Source of the DNA: Halorientalis persicus
GTDB lineage: Archaea; Halobacteriota; Halobacteria; Halobacteriales; Haloarculaceae
Assembly (NCBI RefSeq): GCF_900110215.1
Contig: NZ_FOCX01000012.1
Coordinates: forward strand, 1 to 64,000
DNA length: 64,000 nt
Direction: 5' to 3'
Part shown: positions 2,670-21,164 of the stretch, one piece after another
How positions within the stretch are numbered: the first letter of the stretch is position 1
Layout of the letters: each line of letters opens with the position of its first letter
The notes under the pieces: model-generated
The model's database searches: none
Seen by the model: only the letters and a program-made list of their open reading frames with translations
What the model was told of the DNA's origin: nothing
Made by a program: the position numbers and the translations under genes

Positions 2670-3095
2670 ATGCACAACGAATCACACCACACTGACGACG
2701 AGTCCGAAACGCCACCTGCAGTCGGCACACCGGATGATCTGCCCTCAGGTGTTACCCTCGACCCAGAAGCTGCTGATATTGCGCCACAGCTGCGCTTGCG
2801 AAACGAGCTTTCGGAGAGTCTGACCGACAGCGAGTTCGGCGATGCGGTGATCTTGCCACTCGAGGCCGCCCAGGAGCTGACGAAAGACCACCTTCACGAG
2901 ATCATCACGCATCTTCGGACACATGAGGTCCAATCCGTGTCCCAGCTGGCCGACGATCTCGATGTCAACCGCGGAAACATGAGCCGGTACCTGGAGACGC
3001 TGCTCGAGTACGATGTGATCGATCTCACACAGTCGGGGAAGGCCAAACGGCCCCAGCTCAAGTACGACCACATCCTCTTCGAACCGCTCTATTGA
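2670..3095 (+). CDS. HVO_A0114-type winged-helix DNA-binding protein
   Basis: A 141-residue protein starting at MHNESHH; this ATG lies downstream of the TATA box and palindrome, unlike the earlier in-frame ATG at 2619, which lies inside the palindrome. Residues about 70-140 carry the typical pattern LTKDHLHEIITHLRTHE, then SVSQLADDLDVNRGNMSRYL as helix-turn-helix, then a wing ending RPQLKYDHILFEPL. The haloarchaeal HVO_A0114 family, often antitoxin-like, has this LxYD-x-I ending. The gene at 29385 here belongs to the same family and is paired with a TumE-like toxin; this copy has no visible toxin partner. Confidence 0.75.
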   Translation: MHNESHHTDDESETPPAVGTPDDLPSGVTLDPEAADIAPQLRLRNELSESLTDSEFGDAVILPLEAAQELTKDHLHEIITHLRTHEVQSVSQLADDLDVNRGNMSRYLETLLEYDVIDLTQSGKAKRPQLKYDHILFEPLY

Positions 3096-3159
3096 GCGGG
3101 CGCGTCGGCTGTGGGAGCCCCTGCTGTGATACAACCTCTGAAGCGCTCTACCAAACGTA

Positions 3160-3753
3160 TCACCACTCTTCAGGACTGGACTGTTTCAGATAGGCGATGA
3201 GCAGCGTCTGGCTGATGGTCCACTCGCGTCTAGAATACAACTGAAACTGGCGAGCGGCAGCCTGCAGGAAGGTGAGATCGAACTCTTCCTCGTCAGTGAC
3301 ATCACGAAGGATTGCCCGAATCACCATCGGTGGCCCTGAATTGCCACCCTGGTCACCCCACGACAGCCGTCCCGAGGACGTATCTGGTGGCGACCACTCC
3401 TCGCCGTTTTTATACAGTAGATATTCGTTCGTCCCTGATCCATACGCGCCAGCATACGTATTGCCGGTCTCGGTTTCGTTGACGATTCGCTTACCACGCA
3501 GATACTGCCTCCCCAAATCGGTAATTCGGTAATAGCCATCCTCGACACGGGTTACAAGACCATGGTCCAATAGGACGCCAAGCCGTTGTGATACCCGGCC
3601 TGCAGTGACAAAATCACCGTTTAGCTCAATCACACGCGGGGTTATTGAAAGCCCCCTTCCAAGCATTTCCAGAATTTCATCGTCTGTCTCGTGGACCATC
3701 CAGTCTGGCCCCCGACGCTCGGCCCGCGAGACTAGGCTGTCGCTATCGATCAT
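3160..3753 (-). CDS. phiH1-repressor-like winged helix fused to a DUF6166-like domain
   Basis: A 197-residue protein. Residues about 17-85 (DWMVHETDDEILEMLG, then SITPRVIELN and VSQRLGVLLDHGLV, ending in a wing YYRITDLGRQYL) match the winged-helix proteins related to the phage phiH1 repressor. Residues about 105-195 (EYLLYKNGEEW, then SGRLSWGDQGGNSGPP, AILRDV and WTISQTLLIAYL) follow the DUF6166 layout: YRG-like start, central WG, LA-like helix and terminal W-x-I. The combination suggests a prophage- or plasmid-derived regulator. The gene is convergent with the HVO_A0114-type gene. Confidence 0.65.
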   Translation of the reverse strand: MIDSDSLVSRAERRGPDWMVHETDDEILEMLGRGLSITPRVIELNGDFVTAGRVSQRLGVLLDHGLVTRVEDGYYRITDLGRQYLRGKRIVNETETGNTYAGAYGSGTNEYLLYKNGEEWSPPDTSSGRLSWGDQGGNSGPPMVIRAILRDVTDEEEFDLTFLQAAARQFQLYSRREWTISQTLLIAYLKQSSPEEW

Positions 3754-4253
3754 TGTTGTGTCTGATCATGGTAATTTTGGTTGCAGGGGCATACGACAGT
3801 ATATTAATCCAATTCTAATCATATCCCTATGCCTTTAAGTGGCATGGGGTTATAATACACAGTGTAGCTAATCGAGTCAGTCAAACCAAACATCCGGAGC
3901 GACCCTCGTTGCATCGGTACGCTGCGTTCTAGCGAGCACCCGCAAAGAGATTTCGACAAATGAAGAGCGACGATCCACGATGGCCACATCGCAACAAGGT
4001 GTCGTCCAACTGGTCCCGCTCTCAAGGGTCCTGATAGCCCCCAAATCGACGGAGTTGGTCAGCAGTGCCAACTCTCATGGGCGCAGAGATAGCGCTGTCG
4101 AGACTCTGCTAGCGTGGGGACCGGCGACGAGACGGAGCCAACAACAGCCGTGTTTGCTGGCACAGACGATCTCGTCTGATCGGTCCTCCTGCCGCTCCAA
4201 GCAGAACGCAGTCCCAACGCCAACCGTCGTCTCAGACCCCTCAATCTCAACGT
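3754..4253. other. 500-base gene-poor stretch
   Basis: This stretch separates the divergent genes at 3753 and 4254. Near 3800-3860 it is AT-rich, with an imperfect inverted repeat ATGCC-TTTAAG-TGGCAT and a TATA-like TTTAAG. If this is the promoter of the 835-residue gene, it would have an unusually long leader of about 400 bases. Short open frames (for example 3980-4267) lack haloarchaeal codon bias. I see no RNA gene. Confidence 0.4.
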
Positions 4254-6761
4254 ATGGCAACAAATAAGTCAAATACAGACGAACCAACCGACTCCACAAC
4301 GTCTGGTACCGATACCGATCGAACCCTCCAGCCCAGAACCAATCCCTATATCCGGAAAGTAGGACTTTGGATCGTCCCACCGGATGACGATATAGCCACC
4401 AACCGGGCCCTCCGACAGGGCCTGGTCGCGGCGATCGTGGCACTCTACAACTCGAGGGTCGATTTCGATGTCGTCGAGTTTCTCTCCTTCCCGGATATCC
4501 ACGGCGAGCAGACCTACGTTCTGTCTTTCGAGCTGCCAACCCTGCCCAAACAGCCCAGCCACGTCACCGATTCATCACAACTCAATCTGACCGATTCGAT
4601 CAGCAACGGTGCCACACCTGATAAGGGGACGCTGGGGTATGCCCTCACGATCGCACAACGGAAACTCAAGACACAACTCCCGGAGGGGACTACACTGAAC
4701 CCGGTCCGCGTTTCGTTTGCACCACTGGGTGCCTCTGCCGTCACAACTGCACGACTGGTGAACCGCCGCAACCGGCGTGTCACCGCGGCCTCGAATATCC
4801 ACCAGGCGGCAAATGGCTTCGAACAGATCCTCACAGAACTCCGTGACGAACCCCATCTCTACCAGGTGCTAATCCAGAATCAGGATGCGACCAGCTTCAC
4901 TGTCAGCAGCCGCATCGCCCTGTTTGGCCCCAGACACCAGGCCACAACTGACACCGAAATCTCTCGGCTGGTCAATGAAGGACACTCTCGGACACCCAGT
5001 TCCGGTGTTGCAAACTTGGATCTAAGCTCGAATCTCGTCGCCCTTCGAGAATATCTGTATGCAGCTGATGGCTCGAAACCGGCGGTTCCTGGCTATCACG
5101 ATATCAAGGTCGACGAGCAACAGACACTGCTAGAGTTGTTCATTGGCCACCTGGAGTATCAGGACCTGTTGCGCGGACGTATCGGGGCCAGTCCGATCTA
5201 CTCGAAACTCGATTATTTCCCGAAATTCATCGTCTCAGAACGCGATCTCACGCAACTGATCGGGCTGCCGTCCCTGGCCCATGACAGCCCGTGGGATGTG
5301 GTGCCCGGTCGGGACCCACCGGAACTGGAGCTAATCTCACCTGATGAATTCTCGAAACCCATGGCAGCCACGGCACGCTCACAACGAGCAAACATCGCCG
5401 AGGCTGTCGATACCCGTACCGTCCAGGATGGGAGTGACGAGCATCTTCAGGCAATCCTCGATATCATCCAGATTCTTCGCGAACGTGGCTGGATGGCCGT
5501 CAAAGTCGAGCAGGAGAATGACTCAGTTCCCGATATCTGGGCGCTCACGCCGGATGGTGAACTGGTAATCGTCGAAGTCGAGTGTCAGAACGGGCCCGCA
5601 GGGCTCCTCACGAATATCGCTCGAGCTGTCCACTGGAACATCGATGTCCTCATCGTCTGGGCACCCACTGCCGATGATACAGCCTATGCGAACGCGGATC
5701 GCTCGATCGATACCGTTGACAAGCCGTTCCGGGCGATCGACGACGACCGGACTCGCCTCTACAATCTCAATGACGAACTGACACGGACTGACGAACCGAC
5801 ACCACTGTTGCCCCCGAACATTCCGGAGTGTGAGTGGTGGCTGACACCCGAGGGCGAGCTTGAACTCGTCGCCGACGGCACAGTTGTCGCCTCGGGGCCG
5901 GCGACCGACTCGATCGCCACCTTCGAGTATGACCTGCCGGCCTACCGGACAGACGGTGACGGCTACATCATTGAAAACGCCGACGGCAACGCCGTCAAAG
6001 AGTGTGCGGAACTGCCGGAGGGATGGAGCAAGATTTACCCGCCCTTCGTGCCGACGCGATTGACGTATCTCCCGTATCCGACCTTCCGCTATCTCGAAGA
6101 CATGGAACTCAAACCATACGTCCCACAGGGCGACTGGGACCGAGAAGGCCACATGAATCGGTACAAAGGTGCTCTGAGGGAATACTTCGGCGCCTTCACC
6201 GTCAAACAGGAGGATGAACACATTTTGTTCGATGTCATCCGGCCCCATGCCCGGCAGTGGTATCGACAGCTCACCGACCGCAAAGAACCGGCGGACGGCC
6301 CCTTTGGCACAGTGACCGAACACTTCGAAAAGGCTGGCAATCCGGACCCGGACGAGTCGGGTCGGAATCGCCGGTATCAAAACCGCACCTGGCGGTACCC
6401 GCGCAAGCTTACGTCGCCGGATCTCCCCGAATTTGGCGAGTGTCCCGCTCTTCCTGAGGAGTTAGCCGAGGAGATGACGCATGATCTCCCGCGGGATGAA
6501 CACGATATCATAGCGAGTACGGATCCACTGGCTGCCACGGGCAGCGCCGACGAATCGACGCCAGACGACGAGCAGGCTGCTGACCCGGACAGCGAGACGA
6601 GTACGGATGAAACCGACACGACCACCGACGAGAGTGATGCTGACGAGGATGCGACCGACGAGACTGCCACGACCGCCGAGGACGAAACGACAGCCAACGA
6701 GACCGCCGACACAACGGAAACCGACGCAACTGCCGAGTCAACCGATGACGACCGAGACTGA
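4254..6761 (+). CDS. Large accessory protein with PD-(D/E)xK-like nuclease core
   Basis: An 835-residue protein with no name I recognise. Residues about 30-115 form a mixed region (YIRKVGLWIVPPDDD to YVLSFELP). Residues about 400-470 contain LQAILDIIQILRERGWMAVKVEQE, then PDIWAL and LVIVEVECQN; a D followed about 13 residues later by E-x-E resembles the core of PD-(D/E)xK nucleases, with an acidic residue in place of Lys. About 600-700 hold further alpha/beta sequence with several conserved-looking Tyr/Trp. The last 85 residues are a low-complexity Asp/Glu/Thr tail. It stands alone between regulators, with no helicase or methylase. Catalysis is unproven. Confidence 0.6.
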   Translation: MATNKSNTDEPTDSTTSGTDTDRTLQPRTNPYIRKVGLWIVPPDDDIATNRALRQGLVAAIVALYNSRVDFDVVEFLSFPDIHGEQTYVLSFELPTLPKQPSHVTDSSQLNLTDSISNGATPDKGTLGYALTIAQRKLKTQLPEGTTLNPVRVSFAPLGASAVTTARLVNRRNRRVTAASNIHQAANGFEQILTELRDEPHLYQVLIQNQDATSFTVSSRIALFGPRHQATTDTEISRLVNEGHSRTPSSGVANLDLSSNLVALREYLYAADGSKPAVPGYHDIKVDEQQTLLELFIGHLEYQDLLRGRIGASPIYSKLDYFPKFIVSERDLTQLIGLPSLAHDSPWDVVPGRDPPELELISPDEFSKPMAATARSQRANIAEAVDTRTVQDGSDEHLQAILDIIQILRERGWMAVKVEQENDSVPDIWALTPDGELVIVEVECQNGPAGLLTNIARAVHWNIDVLIVWAPTADDTAYANADRSIDTVDKPFRAIDDDRTRLYNLNDELTRTDEPTPLLPPNIPECEWWLTPEGELELVADGTVVASGPATDSIATFEYDLPAYRTDGDGYIIENADGNAVKECAELPEGWSKIYPPFVPTRLTYLPYPTFRYLEDMELKPYVPQGDWDREGHMNRYKGALREYFGAFTVKQEDEHILFDVIRPHARQWYRQLTDRKEPADGPFGTVTEHFEKAGNPDPDESGRNRRYQNRTWRYPRKLTSPDLPEFGECPALPEELAEEMTHDLPRDEHDIIASTDPLAATGSADESTPDDEQAADPDSETSTDETDTTTDESDADEDATDETATTAEDETTANETADTTETDATAESTDDDRD

Positions 6762-6896
6762 CTAGCGGGTGTCATAGAATAGTTCATACCGGCGCTTCGC
6801 TCCATTGGTTCGATCAGTACAGACGATGCATCGACCGAATCTGATGGGCACACAAATTGAGACTTGGAGTTACAGCGGTAGCGAGGCGAAAGCCAT

Positions 6897-7053
6897 CGGC
6901 TTTACAGTAGTTGCTGATTCGGCAGCTATCGCTTTTGACGAGCGACCTCTGAGAACCCGAGATTTCCGTGCACTCGGTGCACGGCACTCAGAACCAGTAA
7001 GAGCCGGAGCAGAAAATATCAATAACCCTACTTCAGCAACTACTGTTTAGCCG
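6897..7053. repeat. MITE-like element with 21-base inverted ends
   Basis: CGGCTTTACAGTAGTTGCTGA at 6897-6917 is repeated in inverse at 7033-7053 with only two mismatches, including a perfect 14-base core (ACAGTAGTTGCTGA). The 157 bases in between contain no credible gene. A further copy of one end sits at 14164-14183. This is the structure of a miniature inverted-repeat element or a strongly deleted transposon. I did not find a convincing target-site duplication. Confidence 0.65.
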
Positions 7054-7064
7054 TGTGGAGGATG

Positions 7065-7409
7065 TCACTCACCGGCCGCGTTCAGCGCACTGTTCAGCTC
7101 GAACAGCTCCTGCACAACATCGCTCTTGGCGACTCGATACCGGCGCGGTGATGAGTTCGCTACTTCCTCAACGATCTCGGTTTCTACCAGGAGATCGATG
7201 TATTTGCTCACTGTCTGCCGGGTCACACCAGCGTGATCCGCCAGTTCTGTCTTGGTGAACTCCCGCCCCGGCGGAAGGGTGAGGATGGCATCGATGAGGA
7301 TCGGGACGCTCTCGTGCTGCAAAAGATGGAGGACGCCGCTCGGGTTCTCTAAGCGGGCCGCCTTAGTATCCGTCTCCGCTGCCGGGTGTGTCTGCGATGA
7401 CTCGCTCAT
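7065..7409 (-). CDS. Winged-helix transcriptional regulator
   Basis: A 114-residue protein. After a polar N-terminus, residues about 25-100 form a winged helix: VLHLLQHESVPILIDAIL, then FTKTELADHAGVTRQTVSKYI as helix-turn-helix and a wing with SSPRRYRVAKSD. A TATA-like AGTTATATG on the minus strand lies about 25 bases before the ATG, so the mRNA is probably leaderless. It is divergent from the 105-residue gene at 7504, sharing a 94-base promoter region, and could regulate it. Confidence 0.75.
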   Translation of the reverse strand: MSESSQTHPAAETDTKAARLENPSGVLHLLQHESVPILIDAILTLPPGREFTKTELADHAGVTRQTVSKYIDLLVETEIVEEVANSSPRRYRVAKSDVVQELFELNSALNAAGE

Positions 7410-7503: not shown

Positions 7504-7821
7504 ATGCGTAAGCCGTCGGTGAAATGTGCTCTCCTCGCCGCGATGATAGCTGAGCATCGGTGGGGGTCACCCATCGTTGAAGAGAATCTTCTCTCGATTG
7601 CTGCTATCGAGCCAAGTGACTACCCCACTGCTAGCGACATCTTCGACGATCTGCGGTCCAAACCCTACATCACGAACCGAGGGACCCGAGGGATTGAACT
7701 CGACAACAGCGAGTTCAGTCAGATGGCCGATGTCCTCTACCACGAGTGCGACTGGGACCCGTTTGAGATCAAGAGCCGACTGAAGCACTACGAGGGCTGG
7801 GAAAACCACGACTGGGCTTGA
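7504..7821 (+). CDS. Hypothetical protein, 105 residues
   Basis: An acidic cytoplasmic-type protein (MRKPSVKCALLAAMIAEHRWG, then DIFDDLRSKPYITNRGTRGIE and ADVLYHECDWDPFEIKSRL). The layout, with an N-terminal Val-Lys-Cys helix and a closing GW-x-NHDW, looks like a small conserved domain, but I cannot name the family. It is divergent from the winged-helix gene at 7409. An IS605-like hairpin follows the stop codon at once. Confidence 0.6.
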   Translation: MRKPSVKCALLAAMIAEHRWGSPIVEENLLSIAAIEPSDYPTASDIFDDLRSKPYITNRGTRGIELDNSEFSQMADVLYHECDWDPFEIKSRLKHYEGWENHDWA

Positions 7822-7860
7822 CTTCTTCCCCGCGCTGAAGCGCGAGGATTCCTCCGTGGG
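7822..7860 (-). mobile_element. IS605-like end hairpin (solo remnant)
   Basis: Read on the minus strand the segment has a GAGGAATCC start, a hairpin CGCGCTT-CAGCGCG and then GGGGAAGAAG. The left end of the tnpB element at 19860 has the same arrangement (GGATTCC, GC-rich hairpin, GGGGAGGAAG). No tnpA or tnpB lies beside this copy, so it is either a solo end or a similar structure acting as a terminator for the gene ending at 7821. Confidence 0.4.
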
Positions 7861-8143
7861 TAATCCAGTCAGTTGGTTACTAGCCCCTCGTTCTGGAGAC
7901 TGGGGCTTGTCGGTGGACACCCACTCAGTCTCGGCACACTCGCCGGATGGTGAGCGTGTCCCCGATACCACGGTGTCACCAGGGACTGTGGGGTGACTTG
8001 TCTCGGTGGCAGTCAGACCATTACACGCAACCTGCGACCGCTCACTTGCAGGGGCCGTCGGTGGGACGATGGAGTACGTTCGTGATGTTGGCCAGACATG
8101 GCTGTATCGGCCCGGACACGCCCCAGTCACGGCCCCGACAGCC

Positions 8144-8272
8144 GGGTGAGGGGGGCGGTGAGGGGGACAGTAATACGGCCACGTTGTCCCCGTATTCCGG
8201 TGAGGCGGGCACGCGCAAAAACCGCTAGCCGGCAGGCGGTGAGGGGGACACACACCGACTAATTAGAAGAAC
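8144..8272 (+). repeat. Left arm: direct motifs CGGTGAGGGGGA
   Basis: Four motif copies lie in the same orientation: GGGTGAGGGGGG (8144-8155), CGGTGAGGGGGAC (8156-8168), CGGTGAGGCGGGC (8198-8210) and CGGTGAGGGGGACA (8237-8250). The last is preceded by AACCGCTAGCCGGCAG and followed by an ACCGACTAATTAGAAG tail; this entire block recurs in inverted orientation at 9523-9577. The G-runs could also form quadruplex structures. Confidence 0.7.
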
Positions 8273-9522
8273 AAGTGGGGAAAACTGTGCGGTGTGGTGG
8301 CACGGTCGCAGTGACACGATGTGGGGCGGAGGCCAGTCTAGGTCGTGGCCAGTAGGCCGGGGTGGCTGGGCGTGGGTGCCAGGGAACCCACAGCCCGCCG
8401 GGTGTGCCGGTGGCCGAAAAATAGAGGCAGGAAGCAACTCTAGGCCGCGGTGACCACTGCCTGGTGCTGTCGACGGTGACGGTGGAGAGCCACGGCGGCC
8501 CAAATATATAATTCAACTGTTGGTTATGGGGGTGTCATAGACCCGGTCGCAGACCTGTCGCTGGGACTAGCCGATAGCAGCCAGAGCAGGGGGAGAACAA
8601 CGTACCCTTACCACCCCAGCTGTCGAATGAAACACGGGCGTTTCGGGACGGTAGAGACGCTCTCCCCGTATCCAGAAACACACTCGACGCGTGGTTCCTT
8701 GAATGGCAGCCACAGTTACCTATCAGTCAGGTCACCGCATACAGGTAACTAATACCGTCGGAGGTGGTCTACGACACCCTCGTCCATTAAGTGAACAGCT
8801 GTCAGCCCCTTGAGCGACCGTGTCGGTATCCCGGGAGTCGGTGTGCTTCAGCCATTTCTTGGCTTGGTGGATCTGCGTATGCTCTGCGTGGCACGGGTCA
8901 ATCATGATCGTAGTCAGGTAGCACTCACCGGGTGTGGCCCTTCGAGGGCAGCGACGGCCGGTCGGACAGGTCAGTTGGTCGGCTCCGACCGGACTGCTGT
9001 CGCGCCCGTCGCCTCGGGACACGGTGGATCGGTGTGTGCTGGCCGACAGTCGCCACACTGTGGGTCACGGGGCCGCGCACGCGATTCGGGTTCAGTCGTC
9101 GGTTGCTGGCGTCTGCAGCAGCTACCGGGAGCGTGCCGCTCACAGGCTGTTCCTGGCCGGCGTGCTGCTTTGAATGTGGTACTGCCTGTTCAGTGTGAAA
9201 TCGCCTGTAGCGCCGTCTGCTGGTGCTCAGTCGACAGCCCACATGGACGGTCGATCGGTGCCGGTTGGGTGTCTGCAGCGATCGCTGGTCCAGTAGATTA
9301 GTTACGTGTGTGACTATCCTGTGTTCGTGGCGTGGTGTCTGGTGGCTCCCGCAGGTGTCTTACGTATTGTCTCCATCCCTGGTAGGTACGTGCGGTGGCC
9401 AAGCCCTGTCGGCGTTTGCTGGTCACCCACAGTGGCTTTCCTGTGGCTTCTTCCTGCTGTCTATGTACGATTGTTTACTGGTGTGTCGTGGTTTCCGCAT
9501 TATTTCTGCTCTCGGTTCTGCT

Positions 9523-9629
9523 TCTTCTTATTATTAGTCGCTAACTATCCCCCTCACCGGCTGCCGGCTAGCGGTTTTCAGATATACGCCCATCATTAGT
9601 ATACCAGCATAAATTCATCCCCCTCACCG
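9523..9629 (-). repeat. Right arm: inverted motifs TCCCCCTCACCG
   Basis: TCCCCCTCACCG occurs at 9548-9559 and again at 9618-9629, both inverse to the left-arm copies. Around the first, the reverse complement reads GAAAACCGCTAGCCGGCAG, then CCGGTGAGGGGGAT and a GACTAATAATAAGAAG tail, matching the left arm over about 50 bases with a few changes. The two arms therefore form a long imperfect inverted repeat around about 1.25 kb. Confidence 0.7.
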
Positions 9630-13525: not shown

Positions 13526-13768
13526 ATGAGCAGTTCCATTCGGATCTCGGACGAGACGAAGCAAAAGCTCGAGGCGAGAAAACGGGAGGGGGAGTCGTTT
13601 GATGACTTGCTGGACCGGTTGGCACGGACCGAGAAGGATGTCGAGAAGATGGGTGGGTGGCTAGACGAGGACGAGGCTGAAGGCCTTGAAGACCACGTTG
13701 CGGAGAAACGTGAGGAGTTGAACGAGTCGTTCGAGGATCGAAAGGCACGCGTCGATGATCGTTCTTGA
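13526..13768 (+). CDS. VapB-type antitoxin
   Basis: An 80-residue, highly charged protein starting SSSIRISDETKQKLEARKREG-ESFDDLLDRL. This is the ribbon-helix-helix-like N-terminus typical of haloarchaeal VapB antitoxins, followed by an acidic helical tail (WLDEDEAEGLEDHVAEKREE) that would wrap the toxin. The stop codon overlaps the PIN gene by 14 bases, so the two are cotranslated. A palindrome directly upstream suggests autoregulation. Confidence 0.85.
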   Translation: MSSSIRISDETKQKLEARKREGESFDDLLDRLARTEKDVEKMGGWLDEDEAEGLEDHVAEKREELNESFEDRKARVDDRS

Positions 13769-14156
13769 CACGGACGTTCTCGTAGAGTACGCGCGGCCGA
13801 ACAGCGACCCCCAAGTGACTTCGTATCTCACCCAGCGAACAGACGAGCAGTGGATCGTGCCATCCGTGGGGCTGTACGAGTATCTCTCGTTCTACGGGTC
13901 GCAGTCACGGCGGCGGACGGAGCGGAAACAGGTAGAAAGTAGGGTCGACGCAGTCCTCCCGTTGGACGCCGACGCCGCCCTGGAAGCCTCGGACATAGAG
14001 AATCTGCTCAGTTCGTCGGGAACTTCACTCGATCCTGGTGACCTGCTGATCGCGGCGATCGCTCGATCCCGGAACGCGACGCTCGCGACCAGGAACAAGA
14101 ACGACTTCGACAAGCAACCGATCCAGCAGCTGATGGACGTCGACATCGTTCGGTAA
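13755..14156 (+). CDS. VapC-type PIN-domain toxin
   Basis: A 133-residue PIN domain with the acidic catalytic set: MIVLDTDVLVEYAR (first Asp), GLYEYLSFYG (Glu), and LDPGDLLIAAIARSRNATLATRNKNDFDK (D-x-x-IAA and the final Asp). PIN toxins cleave RNA with metal ions, often initiator tRNA or rRNA. The gene overlaps its antitoxin by 14 bases. A one-sided copy of the MITE end from 7033-7053 lies 8 bases downstream. Confidence 0.88.
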   Translation: MIVLDTDVLVEYARPNSDPQVTSYLTQRTDEQWIVPSVGLYEYLSFYGSQSRRRTERKQVESRVDAVLPLDADAALEASDIENLLSSSGTSLDPGDLLIAAIARSRNATLATRNKNDFDKQPIQQLMDVDIVR

Positions 14157-19832: not shown

Positions 19833-19955
19833 TTCACTTCTGCTTCAAACTAGGTAGCAAGGCGGATTCCCCACCCCACCGTGGGCGGGGAGGAAGCCGA
19901 CACCCGCTGCCACAAACCACGAGCTATTAAGTACCTCTCCCACCTATTGAATCTC

Positions 19956-21164
19956 GTGGCAGACGACTACCTGAGGCGCACCGCAATCACCCGGCCTACC
20001 CTCACCGACGAGCAGAAGCAACTGCTCGATACCACCATCAACGAGTGGCAAACTGCCTGCAACATCAGCAGCCAGATCGGATGGGAACACGGTGAAACGC
20101 GGAAAACGTACCTCCAAGACCTCGCCTATGACGAGATACAGGAGGAGACGCGTCTCAGGAGTCAGCACGCGGTCCTCGCCACCCACCAAGCCGCAGCCGC
20201 CCTCTCTGGCGTCGAAGAACTGGACGAGGAGTACAAGACTTCACGGCCGGAGTTCACCGCCGAGACGGTGAAATACGACACCCGGACGCTGACCCTATTC
20301 GACGACGGCACGGTCTCACTCGCAACAGTCGATGACCGTATTCGGTGTGACCTCGCGTTACCGGACGACAAAGACGGCTATCAATACCAGTACCTCAACG
20401 ATGAGGACTGGGAACTCACTGAATCCACGCTCACCCGACGCGATGGAGAGTACTACCTGCACCTTGGGTTCCGCAAACCGAAGCCCGAGAAACAGGTCGA
20501 ACAACAGGGCGACGACGAGGACAGGACAGTTCTCGGCGTCGATCTCGGCATCGTCAACATCGCCACCACCTCAACGGCGTACTTCGCGTCCGGCAGAGAA
20601 CTCAGACATCGACACCGGGAGTTCGAGCGGATTCGCAGCAGTCTCCAACAGACCGGTACGCAGTCCGCCCACCGTACCATCCAGCAGATGAGTGGCAGGG
20701 AATCCCGATACGTTCGAGATGTCCTACATCGGGTGGCCAACGACATCATCGAGGAAGCGGTGGCACACGACTGCGAGTACATCGCGTTCGAGAACCTGAA
20801 ACACATCAGGGAACGTGCGCCCCCAGTGAAGGAGTTCCACCAGTGGGCGCACCGCCAGCTCGTTGACCTCGTGGAGTACAAGGCGGAAGAGGAGGGCATT
20901 TGTACGGAGTACGTCGATCCGGAGAACACGAGTCGGCGGTGTCCCGAGTGTGGGCACACGAGCGAAGGGAACCGCGTCAGGCAGGCGAAGTTTGAGTGCG
21001 GGAAGTGTGGTGCGGCGGCGAACGCGGACTACGTTGGAGCGAAGAACGTTGGGTGGCGGTACGTCCGTCGCGGCCTCCAGTCGTCGCGGCGGACGGGCGA
21101 CAGTCAACTCGCCCTGAAGTCAGGAACGGTGACGCCGAACCGGGGGTTTGTCCCGTCCGACTAA
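19956..21164 (+). CDS. tnpB: TnpB RNA-guided nuclease-like protein
   Basis: 402 residues from the GTG at 19956 (VADDYLRRTAITRPTLT), a usual start for haloarchaeal TnpB; an upstream ATG at 19881 lies within the hairpin-proximal end and is unlikely. The RuvC-like site is complete: Asp196 in VLGVDLGIVN, Glu279 in YIAFENLKHIRER and Asp358 in NADYVGAKNVG. A zinc ribbon CPECG...CGKCG (Cys329, 332, 348, 351) sits between. TnpB proteins cut DNA using a guide RNA from the element's 3' end. The gene appears intact. Confidence 0.88.
   Translation: MADDYLRRTAITRPTLTDEQKQLLDTTINEWQTACNISSQIGWEHGETRKTYLQDLAYDEIQEETRLRSQHAVLATHQAAAALSGVEELDEEYKTSRPEFTAETVKYDTRTLTLFDDGTVSLATVDDRIRCDLALPDDKDGYQYQYLNDEDWELTESTLTRRDGEYYLHLGFRKPKPEKQVEQQGDDEDRTVLGVDLGIVNIATTSTAYFASGRELRHRHREFERIRSSLQQTGTQSAHRTIQQMSGRESRYVRDVLHRVANDIIEEAVAHDCEYIAFENLKHIRERAPPVKEFHQWAHRQLVDLVEYKAEEEGICTEYVDPENTSRRCPECGHTSEGNRVRQAKFECGKCGAAANADYVGAKNVGWRYVRRGLQSSRRTGDSQLALKSGTVTPNRGFVPSD

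Follow-up and report, generated by a model that had tools for sequence, protein, structure and literature searches.

A conserved two-armed DNA site strictly associated with a nuclease-like, winged-helix protein family in haloarchaea

The origin-binding domain of the P4 alpha protein is a D5-type C-terminal winged helix, and transposon Tn7 has non-identical inverted ends that carry spaced binding sites, together with a PD-(D/E)xK-like nuclease of the TnsA type. The Rep/ori modules of chromosomal islands place two sets of iterons around an AT-rich region (PMC6092414), bacterial origins are opened at repeated NAN triplets beside initiator boxes (PMC8287927), and the haloarchaeal Orc1/Cdc6 origin has ORB repeats with a G-string that flank an AT-rich stretch (PMC3936714). 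Here we analysed a site in Halorientalis persicus that resembles each of these in part. It lies in a stretch of 64,000 nucleotides (contig NZ_FOCX01000012.1, positions 1 to 64,000), hereafter called the window, and its arms are one case of a two-armed site that is conserved at a number of haloarchaeal loci and strictly associated with one protein family, which we call B.

An earlier reading of the window from its letters (the original prediction) had described motif copies and inverted arms around some 1.25 kb without genes. Recomputation of the exact and degenerate copies and of the repeat placed all of them where they had been reported. The motif CGGTGAGGGGGA is exact at 8156-8167 and 8237-8248 on the plus strand and at 9548-9559 and 9618-9629 on the minus strand, two degenerate copies with two mismatches lie at 8144-8155 and 8198-8209, and the inverted repeat (8218-8275 / 9521-9578) measures 58 nt, is 84% complementary and leaves 1245 nt between its arms. 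The only ORFs in the spacer overlap one another and are of low confidence, in agreement with the description as gene-free, and no Rfam family reaches its gathering score in it. The 4.87-Mb assembly contains five exact copies of CGGTGAGGGGGA, four of them inside the 1.5-kb site of the window, and a single arm pair. This pair scores 37.3, whereas none of 40 first-order Markov shuffles of the 20-kb region exceeded 17.7. The features are as follows.

4254..6761, plus strand: protein B, 835 aa (family alignments)
8144..8155, plus strand: outer left iteron, degenerate (motif scan)
8156..8167, plus strand: outer left iteron CGGTGAGGGGGA (exact match)
8198..8209, plus strand: left iteron, degenerate (motif scan)
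8218..8232, plus strand: left box AAAACCGCTAGCCGG, family consensus AAAATCGCATGACGG (arm alignment)
8237..8248, plus strand: core-proximal left iteron, about -18 relative to the core
8255..8275, plus strand: left core CCGACT and five NAN triplets (AAT TAG AAG AAC AAG), facing inward
8276..9520, no strand: spacer, non-coding, its middle not conserved among relatives
9515..9541, minus strand: right core GCGACT and seven NAN triplets, facing inward
9548..9559, minus strand: core-proximal right iteron
9564..9578, minus strand: right box AAAACCGCTAGCCGG
9618..9629, minus strand: outer right iteron (exact match)

A search for the arms in other haloarchaeal genomes and plasmids had been proposed. Carried out at the DNA level with the 1.6-kb region on 146 genomes of the family and on plasmids, it returned nothing useful, which indicates that the site is conserved at the pattern level only. 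The first lead came instead from the surroundings of B homologues, where we found widely spaced facing repeats that resembled the window arms (AGTCGGTG...GCCG.CT.GCGGTT). Facing arm pairs were aligned from 23 haloarchaeal loci, amounting to 46 arms (45 in the arm alignment), with the held-out loci being additional. Read from outside to inside, the arms present spaced iterons, the box, one iteron about 17 bp before the core, the CCGACT core and A-rich triplets, and box, iteron, core and triplet tract stand in fixed register across the aligned arms, the two arms of each pair always facing one another. Iterons recur at about -17, -50 to -58, -85 to -89 and -96 to -102. Their sequence depends on the group of loci (GGTGAGGGGGA in the window, ATGAGGGG in L097-L100, CATACTAC in L078-L084 and GCAGCACC in L094-L096) and their type tracks the clade of B, as would be expected if B or A, the partner of B described below, recognises the site. 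Since iteron detection by word counts was no better than shuffles in L044, L092, L093, L101 and others, the iterons are strong one by one in about half of the loci only. The inner tract is strongly triplet-periodic, with a lag-3 self-match of 0.575 (0.341 +/- 0.013 in shuffled sequence) and a mean NAN run of 5.2 (3.2 shuffled).

At most loci the two best core matches are the facing pair, and the arms lie within about 0.2-2.5 kb of the A/B operon. The spacer measures 390-1250 bp at most loci and 390-3894 bp over the aligned set, while the arms of one further pair (G373:C95) are 6.9 kb apart. It tolerates insertions, at least one of the long spacers (that of L043) holding transposase genes, and its middle is the least conserved part (79% versus 93-95% from box to core between L098 and L100; 55% versus 83-88% between L082 and L083). 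Left and right arm of a locus are not equivalent: they differ in iteron number, they match over only about 23-73 nt at most loci, and it is the same-side arm that is common to relatives. Motif spacing and orientation, on whose conservation the original prediction had made its case depend, are both kept in relatives.

The arms were also sought with a sequence-only profile (R1, E<1e-4) in 292 genomes of the class. They were found in 18 of them, and B is encoded in 17 of these 18. G451 and G205 are outside the set from which R1 was built: in the held-out G451 each of three B genes has its own facing arm pair, and the held-out G205 has one such pair. The arms of the window, which are among the sequences R1 was built from, match it with E=3.1e-10 (left core region) and E=1e-10 (right core region). 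The eighteenth genome, G372, carries a lone arm with box and core (L112, 10030-10092) beside a sugar-transferase gene of the window's kind; at this locus there was no B or A match and a second arm was not found, so that the solitary arm is probably a relic of the module. Among 52 genomes of the genus of G152 (apparently Halorubrum), 14 encode B in full or split form, and arms are present in 13 of the 14, against none of the 38 genomes without B; in the sole B genome without arms (G303), a contig edge falls on the arm side. Many of the genomes behind these counts also belong to the set used to build R1. Genomes with conjugation-type ATPases alone gave no strong R1 matches. As a separate observation from a few cases, five genomes (G306, G309, G373, G429 and G451) hold two or three modules, apparently of differing iteron and B types, which is the pattern expected from plasmid incompatibility.

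Protein B consists of an N-terminal region, a PD...ExE nuclease-like domain, a domain that we call WWLTP, a D5-type winged helix and an acidic low-complexity tail. In the alignment of 23 B sequences P426, D427, E441 and E443 are invariant, and the acidic residues follow the order of PD-(D/E)xK-type nucleases in an ExE variant. Neither the whole protein nor its C-terminus alone had a significant match in Pfam, the family had none among the PADLOC families for CRISPR and anti-phage defence at E<=0.1, and the PDB sequences yielded a single weak match (E=0.24). Homologues in other haloarchaea are 22-30% identical. When the B profile was run on 391 genomes of the class, about 25 had long matches, and the remaining matches were mostly conjugation-type ATPases of 1450-1500 aa that have the C-terminal part in common. 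The homology extends over residues 383-716 of B and the ATPase C-terminus (HHalign 99.4%), and Pox_D5 scored above the Pfam cut-off in one of the three ATPases scanned. B is usually paired with a homologue, A, to which it aligns over nearly the full length with 100% HHalign probability and which is devoid of the acidic motif; A precedes B in one group and follows it in the other. In the window the A profile matched B only, the genome gave no second long match apart from an ATPase, and A was not found in it. Searches of B and A against Pfam and PHROGs disclosed no helicase, ATPase or primase domain.

The AlphaFold models were of low confidence (pLDDT 53 for the window protein and 56 for a relative). 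The uncertain model of the window protein gave no reliable whole-protein match in Foldseek. The last 85 or so residues of the relative matched the winged helices of viral D5-like helicase-primases with a probability near 1, and its C-terminal domain matched the RFX DNA-binding domain with a probability of 0.97, although the E-values of these winged-helix matches do not pass 0.001. For the nuclease-like domain, these low-confidence models had no PDB match among the best 50 listed. Two further occurrences of the same domains were observed. ATPases of about 1460-1510 aa with a C-terminal nuclease-like domain and a D5-type winged helix are encoded at L118 (G000:C32:14001-26000, 2919-7304) and at L119-L123, and a third small protein (about 200-230 aa) with a C-terminus like the D5-type winged helix stands beside A/B at six loci (L078 5930-6613, L079, L084, L088, L090 and L104 9169-9834).

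Where an assembly has contigs longer than 3 Mb, it is the large contig that carries the module (G020, G100, G141, G215 and, twice, G306), and both G306 loci are in islands of lower GC. The module was absent from the 72,556 plasmid records of PLSDB, in which the window B gave two ATPase matches only and two B relatives gave none, and no B-family match was found in viral contigs. At the loci that apparently belong to Halorubrum, homology is confined to a block made up of B, A and both arms, near and far, and the surrounding DNA is largely unrelated; the B-A-arm cassette occupies differing contexts in related genomes. An orc gene was present at about 10 of some 31 B/A loci (in the 10-20 kb fetched) and in 3 of 20 background pieces from G306, a comparison that is not clean because those pieces come from the same regions as the loci. 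Near some B/A loci we also noted a second design of facing arms, namely ORB-like arrays that face each other across an orc1/cdc6 gene at 1.3-1.7 kb (L043 17039-18809; also L082, L091, L093, L097 and L102). A link with exopolysaccharide clusters was clear at four loci only (the window, L095, L104 and L112) and was not used.

We believe that the best explanation is an iteron-type initiator site for the replication of an integrated element, with a probability of roughly 0.42. The arms would be the two halves of a DNA target site, and the B family, with A at most loci, its putative trans-acting part. We infer that the D5-type winged helices of B and A bind the locus-specific iterons on both arms and thereby position a B/A complex on the core, where the A-rich triplet tract would be opened or nicked by the PD-(D/E)xE domain. 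By analogy with PICI and with P4 Rep/ori, the most likely purpose would be a replication start for the integrated element or its surroundings that does without Orc1/Cdc6 and ORB. The fixed register of the iterons, a winged helix of the type that binds origins and the A-rich triplets beside the core together suggest a nucleoprotein complex that opens or nicks the arms, and we counted in favour of the initiator the Pox_D5-scoring ATPase C-terminus together with the Foldseek winged-helix match, as well as the iterons that flank AT-rich DNA on both sides, as they do in island origins. The PICI/SaPI and P4 Rep(alpha)-ori modules are likewise found in chromosomal islands, with locus-specific iterons on both sides of AT-rich DNA, a protein with a D5-type winged helix and an iteron type that follows the protein clade. 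Here the PICI/SaPI layout is stretched, two AT-rich tracts being separated by a long dispensable spacer, and in contrast to those systems B and A have a nuclease-like motif in place of primase and helicase, are archaeal and come with no integrase or helper-phage features that we could see. In the bacterial DnaA-trio element (BUS) a binding box is also followed by a short gap and repeated NAN triplets (PMC8287927), whereas the haloarchaeal site involves no DnaA, occurs twice in facing orientation and has its A-rich strand in the opposite polarity.

That polarity counts against an initiator. So do the invariant nuclease-like residues, for which an initiator that simply opens DNA would have no use, the lack of a helicase, ATPase or primase domain in B and A, and the triplet tracts themselves, which are hundreds of bp apart around a dispensable spacer, unlike a single unwinding element. 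GC skew showed no clear switch at the two chromosomal loci analysed, the module is missing from the plasmid records even though an origin is something that plasmids should use, and the orc gene near about a third of the loci could already serve replication. An integrated-plasmid origin had been among the original proposals. Its Orc/ORB form is not supported for the window, where tblastn with two orc proteins found no orc gene and where the iterons lack an ORB, and it is the form with a non-Orc initiator and iterons that provides the best of the several explanations. Haloarchaeal oriC does resemble the site in having facing repeats, some of them G-rich, round a non-coding region, and some B/A loci have a nearby orc and ORB-like arms; however, the arm iterons show, by inspection, neither the ORB body nor its consensus, those of several groups are not G-rich (e.g. 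CATACTAC and GCAGCACC) and the partner protein is unrelated. A bolder version, which we regard as doubtful, is that of an undescribed, chromosome-only archaeal system in which a nuclease/pseudo-nuclease pair with origin-binding winged helices would start replication by nicking at the two-armed site, independently of Orc1/Cdc6 and with differing specificity types coexisting in one genome.

Recombination is also compatible with the invariance of the nuclease motif, with the freedom in spacer length and with the difference between left and right, and the main alternative, possible if rather doubtful, is that the arms form the left and the right end of a system of the recombination or transposition type in which B, with an inactive A, would cleave the cores and mobilise or rearrange the flanking island, the spacer being a neutral junction. 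PD...ExE is invariant in all 23 B sequences, arms that differ from each other in iteron number, while the same-side arm is conserved between relatives, behave like transposon ends, the B-A-arm cassette changes context among related genomes, and the probable relic arm at L112 stands alone beside a sugar-transferase gene of the window's kind. Tn7-like ends share with the site the two non-identical inverted ends, the spaced sites and the PD-(D/E)xK-like nuclease partner. Yet the arms face inward round a neutral spacer, so that such ends would be inside-out; no TnsB/TnsC homologue was recognised and no integrase-like fold was found; no target duplication was seen by eye at the arm edges and the genome has no further copies; and transposon ends do not typically carry an A-rich triplet tract. 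A non-autonomous, MITE-like transposon, as had also been suggested for the window, is not supported by the single genomic copy, by motifs that reach beyond the arms at unequal distances and by relatives that vary in the spacer and not in the arms.

It is improbable that the site is a transfer origin at which a nick by B would initiate export of DNA or mating transfer of the island. B does have a C-terminal module (nuclease-like, WWLTP and Pox_D5-type winged-helix domains) homologous to that of haloarchaeal TraG/HerA-like conjugation ATPases, but B and A have no ATPase and a different N-terminal region, no transfer genes recur at the B/A loci, and ATPase loci are without such arms, with no strong arm matches in ATPase-only genomes. 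There is similarly little chance of a partition (centromere-like) or DNA-organising site, or of an operator of the A/B operon. Clustered inverted iterons that adjoin the genes of their presumed binders, mostly at 0.2-2.5 kb, would suit either role; however, no ParA-like ATPase was recognised among recurrent neighbours and chromosomal islands need no partition, an operator would not require two arms up to several kb apart, and the nuclease motif would have no explanation. The long complementary arms of the window could also recall a structured non-coding RNA in which they would form a long paired stem. This is most improbable, and we rejected it because the two arms diverge and match over only about 23-73 nt at most loci, because the unconserved middle of the spacer carries insertions, and because no Rfam match reached its gathering score. 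The site corresponds neither to an ORB origin or an IS nor to a CRISPR or an Rfam RNA, in keeping with the earlier failure to recognise an ORB, IS end or CRISPR repeat. The remaining original proposal, a protein-bound boundary, is supported in the form of protein-bound sites in an integrated element, for which iterons in fixed register, a conserved core and the strict link to a winged-helix, nuclease-like family speak at the level of sequence. As a whole, the original interpretation is supported in part.

Our searches of the open-access literature found no description of the module, which is apparently undescribed: it is broadly a target site with its own DNA-processing proteins, and its parts and arrangement match no family tested. 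It combines a conserved site with a strictly linked family that has no match in Pfam, PADLOC or PHROGs, and about one genome in four of a well-studied haloarchaeal genus has it. If a replication start is the true purpose, the module would represent a class of origin without Orc1/Cdc6 and would bear on the multiple origins of haloarchaea and on their survival of origin deletion; if DNA is cut or moved, it could explain gene turnover in haloarchaeal islands. Under either reading, the iteron, core and protein matches permit direct binding, nicking and plasmid tests in haloarchaea.

Some minor observations concern the remainder of the window. A 45-bp piece of the spacer (8980-9024) is 85% identical to G010:C3:162939-162983, from a genome of the family. 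Directly to the left of the left arm, positions 7800-7999 resemble the end of an IS200/605-type element and on the minus strand match the Rfam families HgcC and sot0042 weakly and below threshold, and a tnpB-like ORF is located at 19881-21164. Finally, a small gene pair at 13526-14156 resembles the VapB/VapC toxin-antitoxin.
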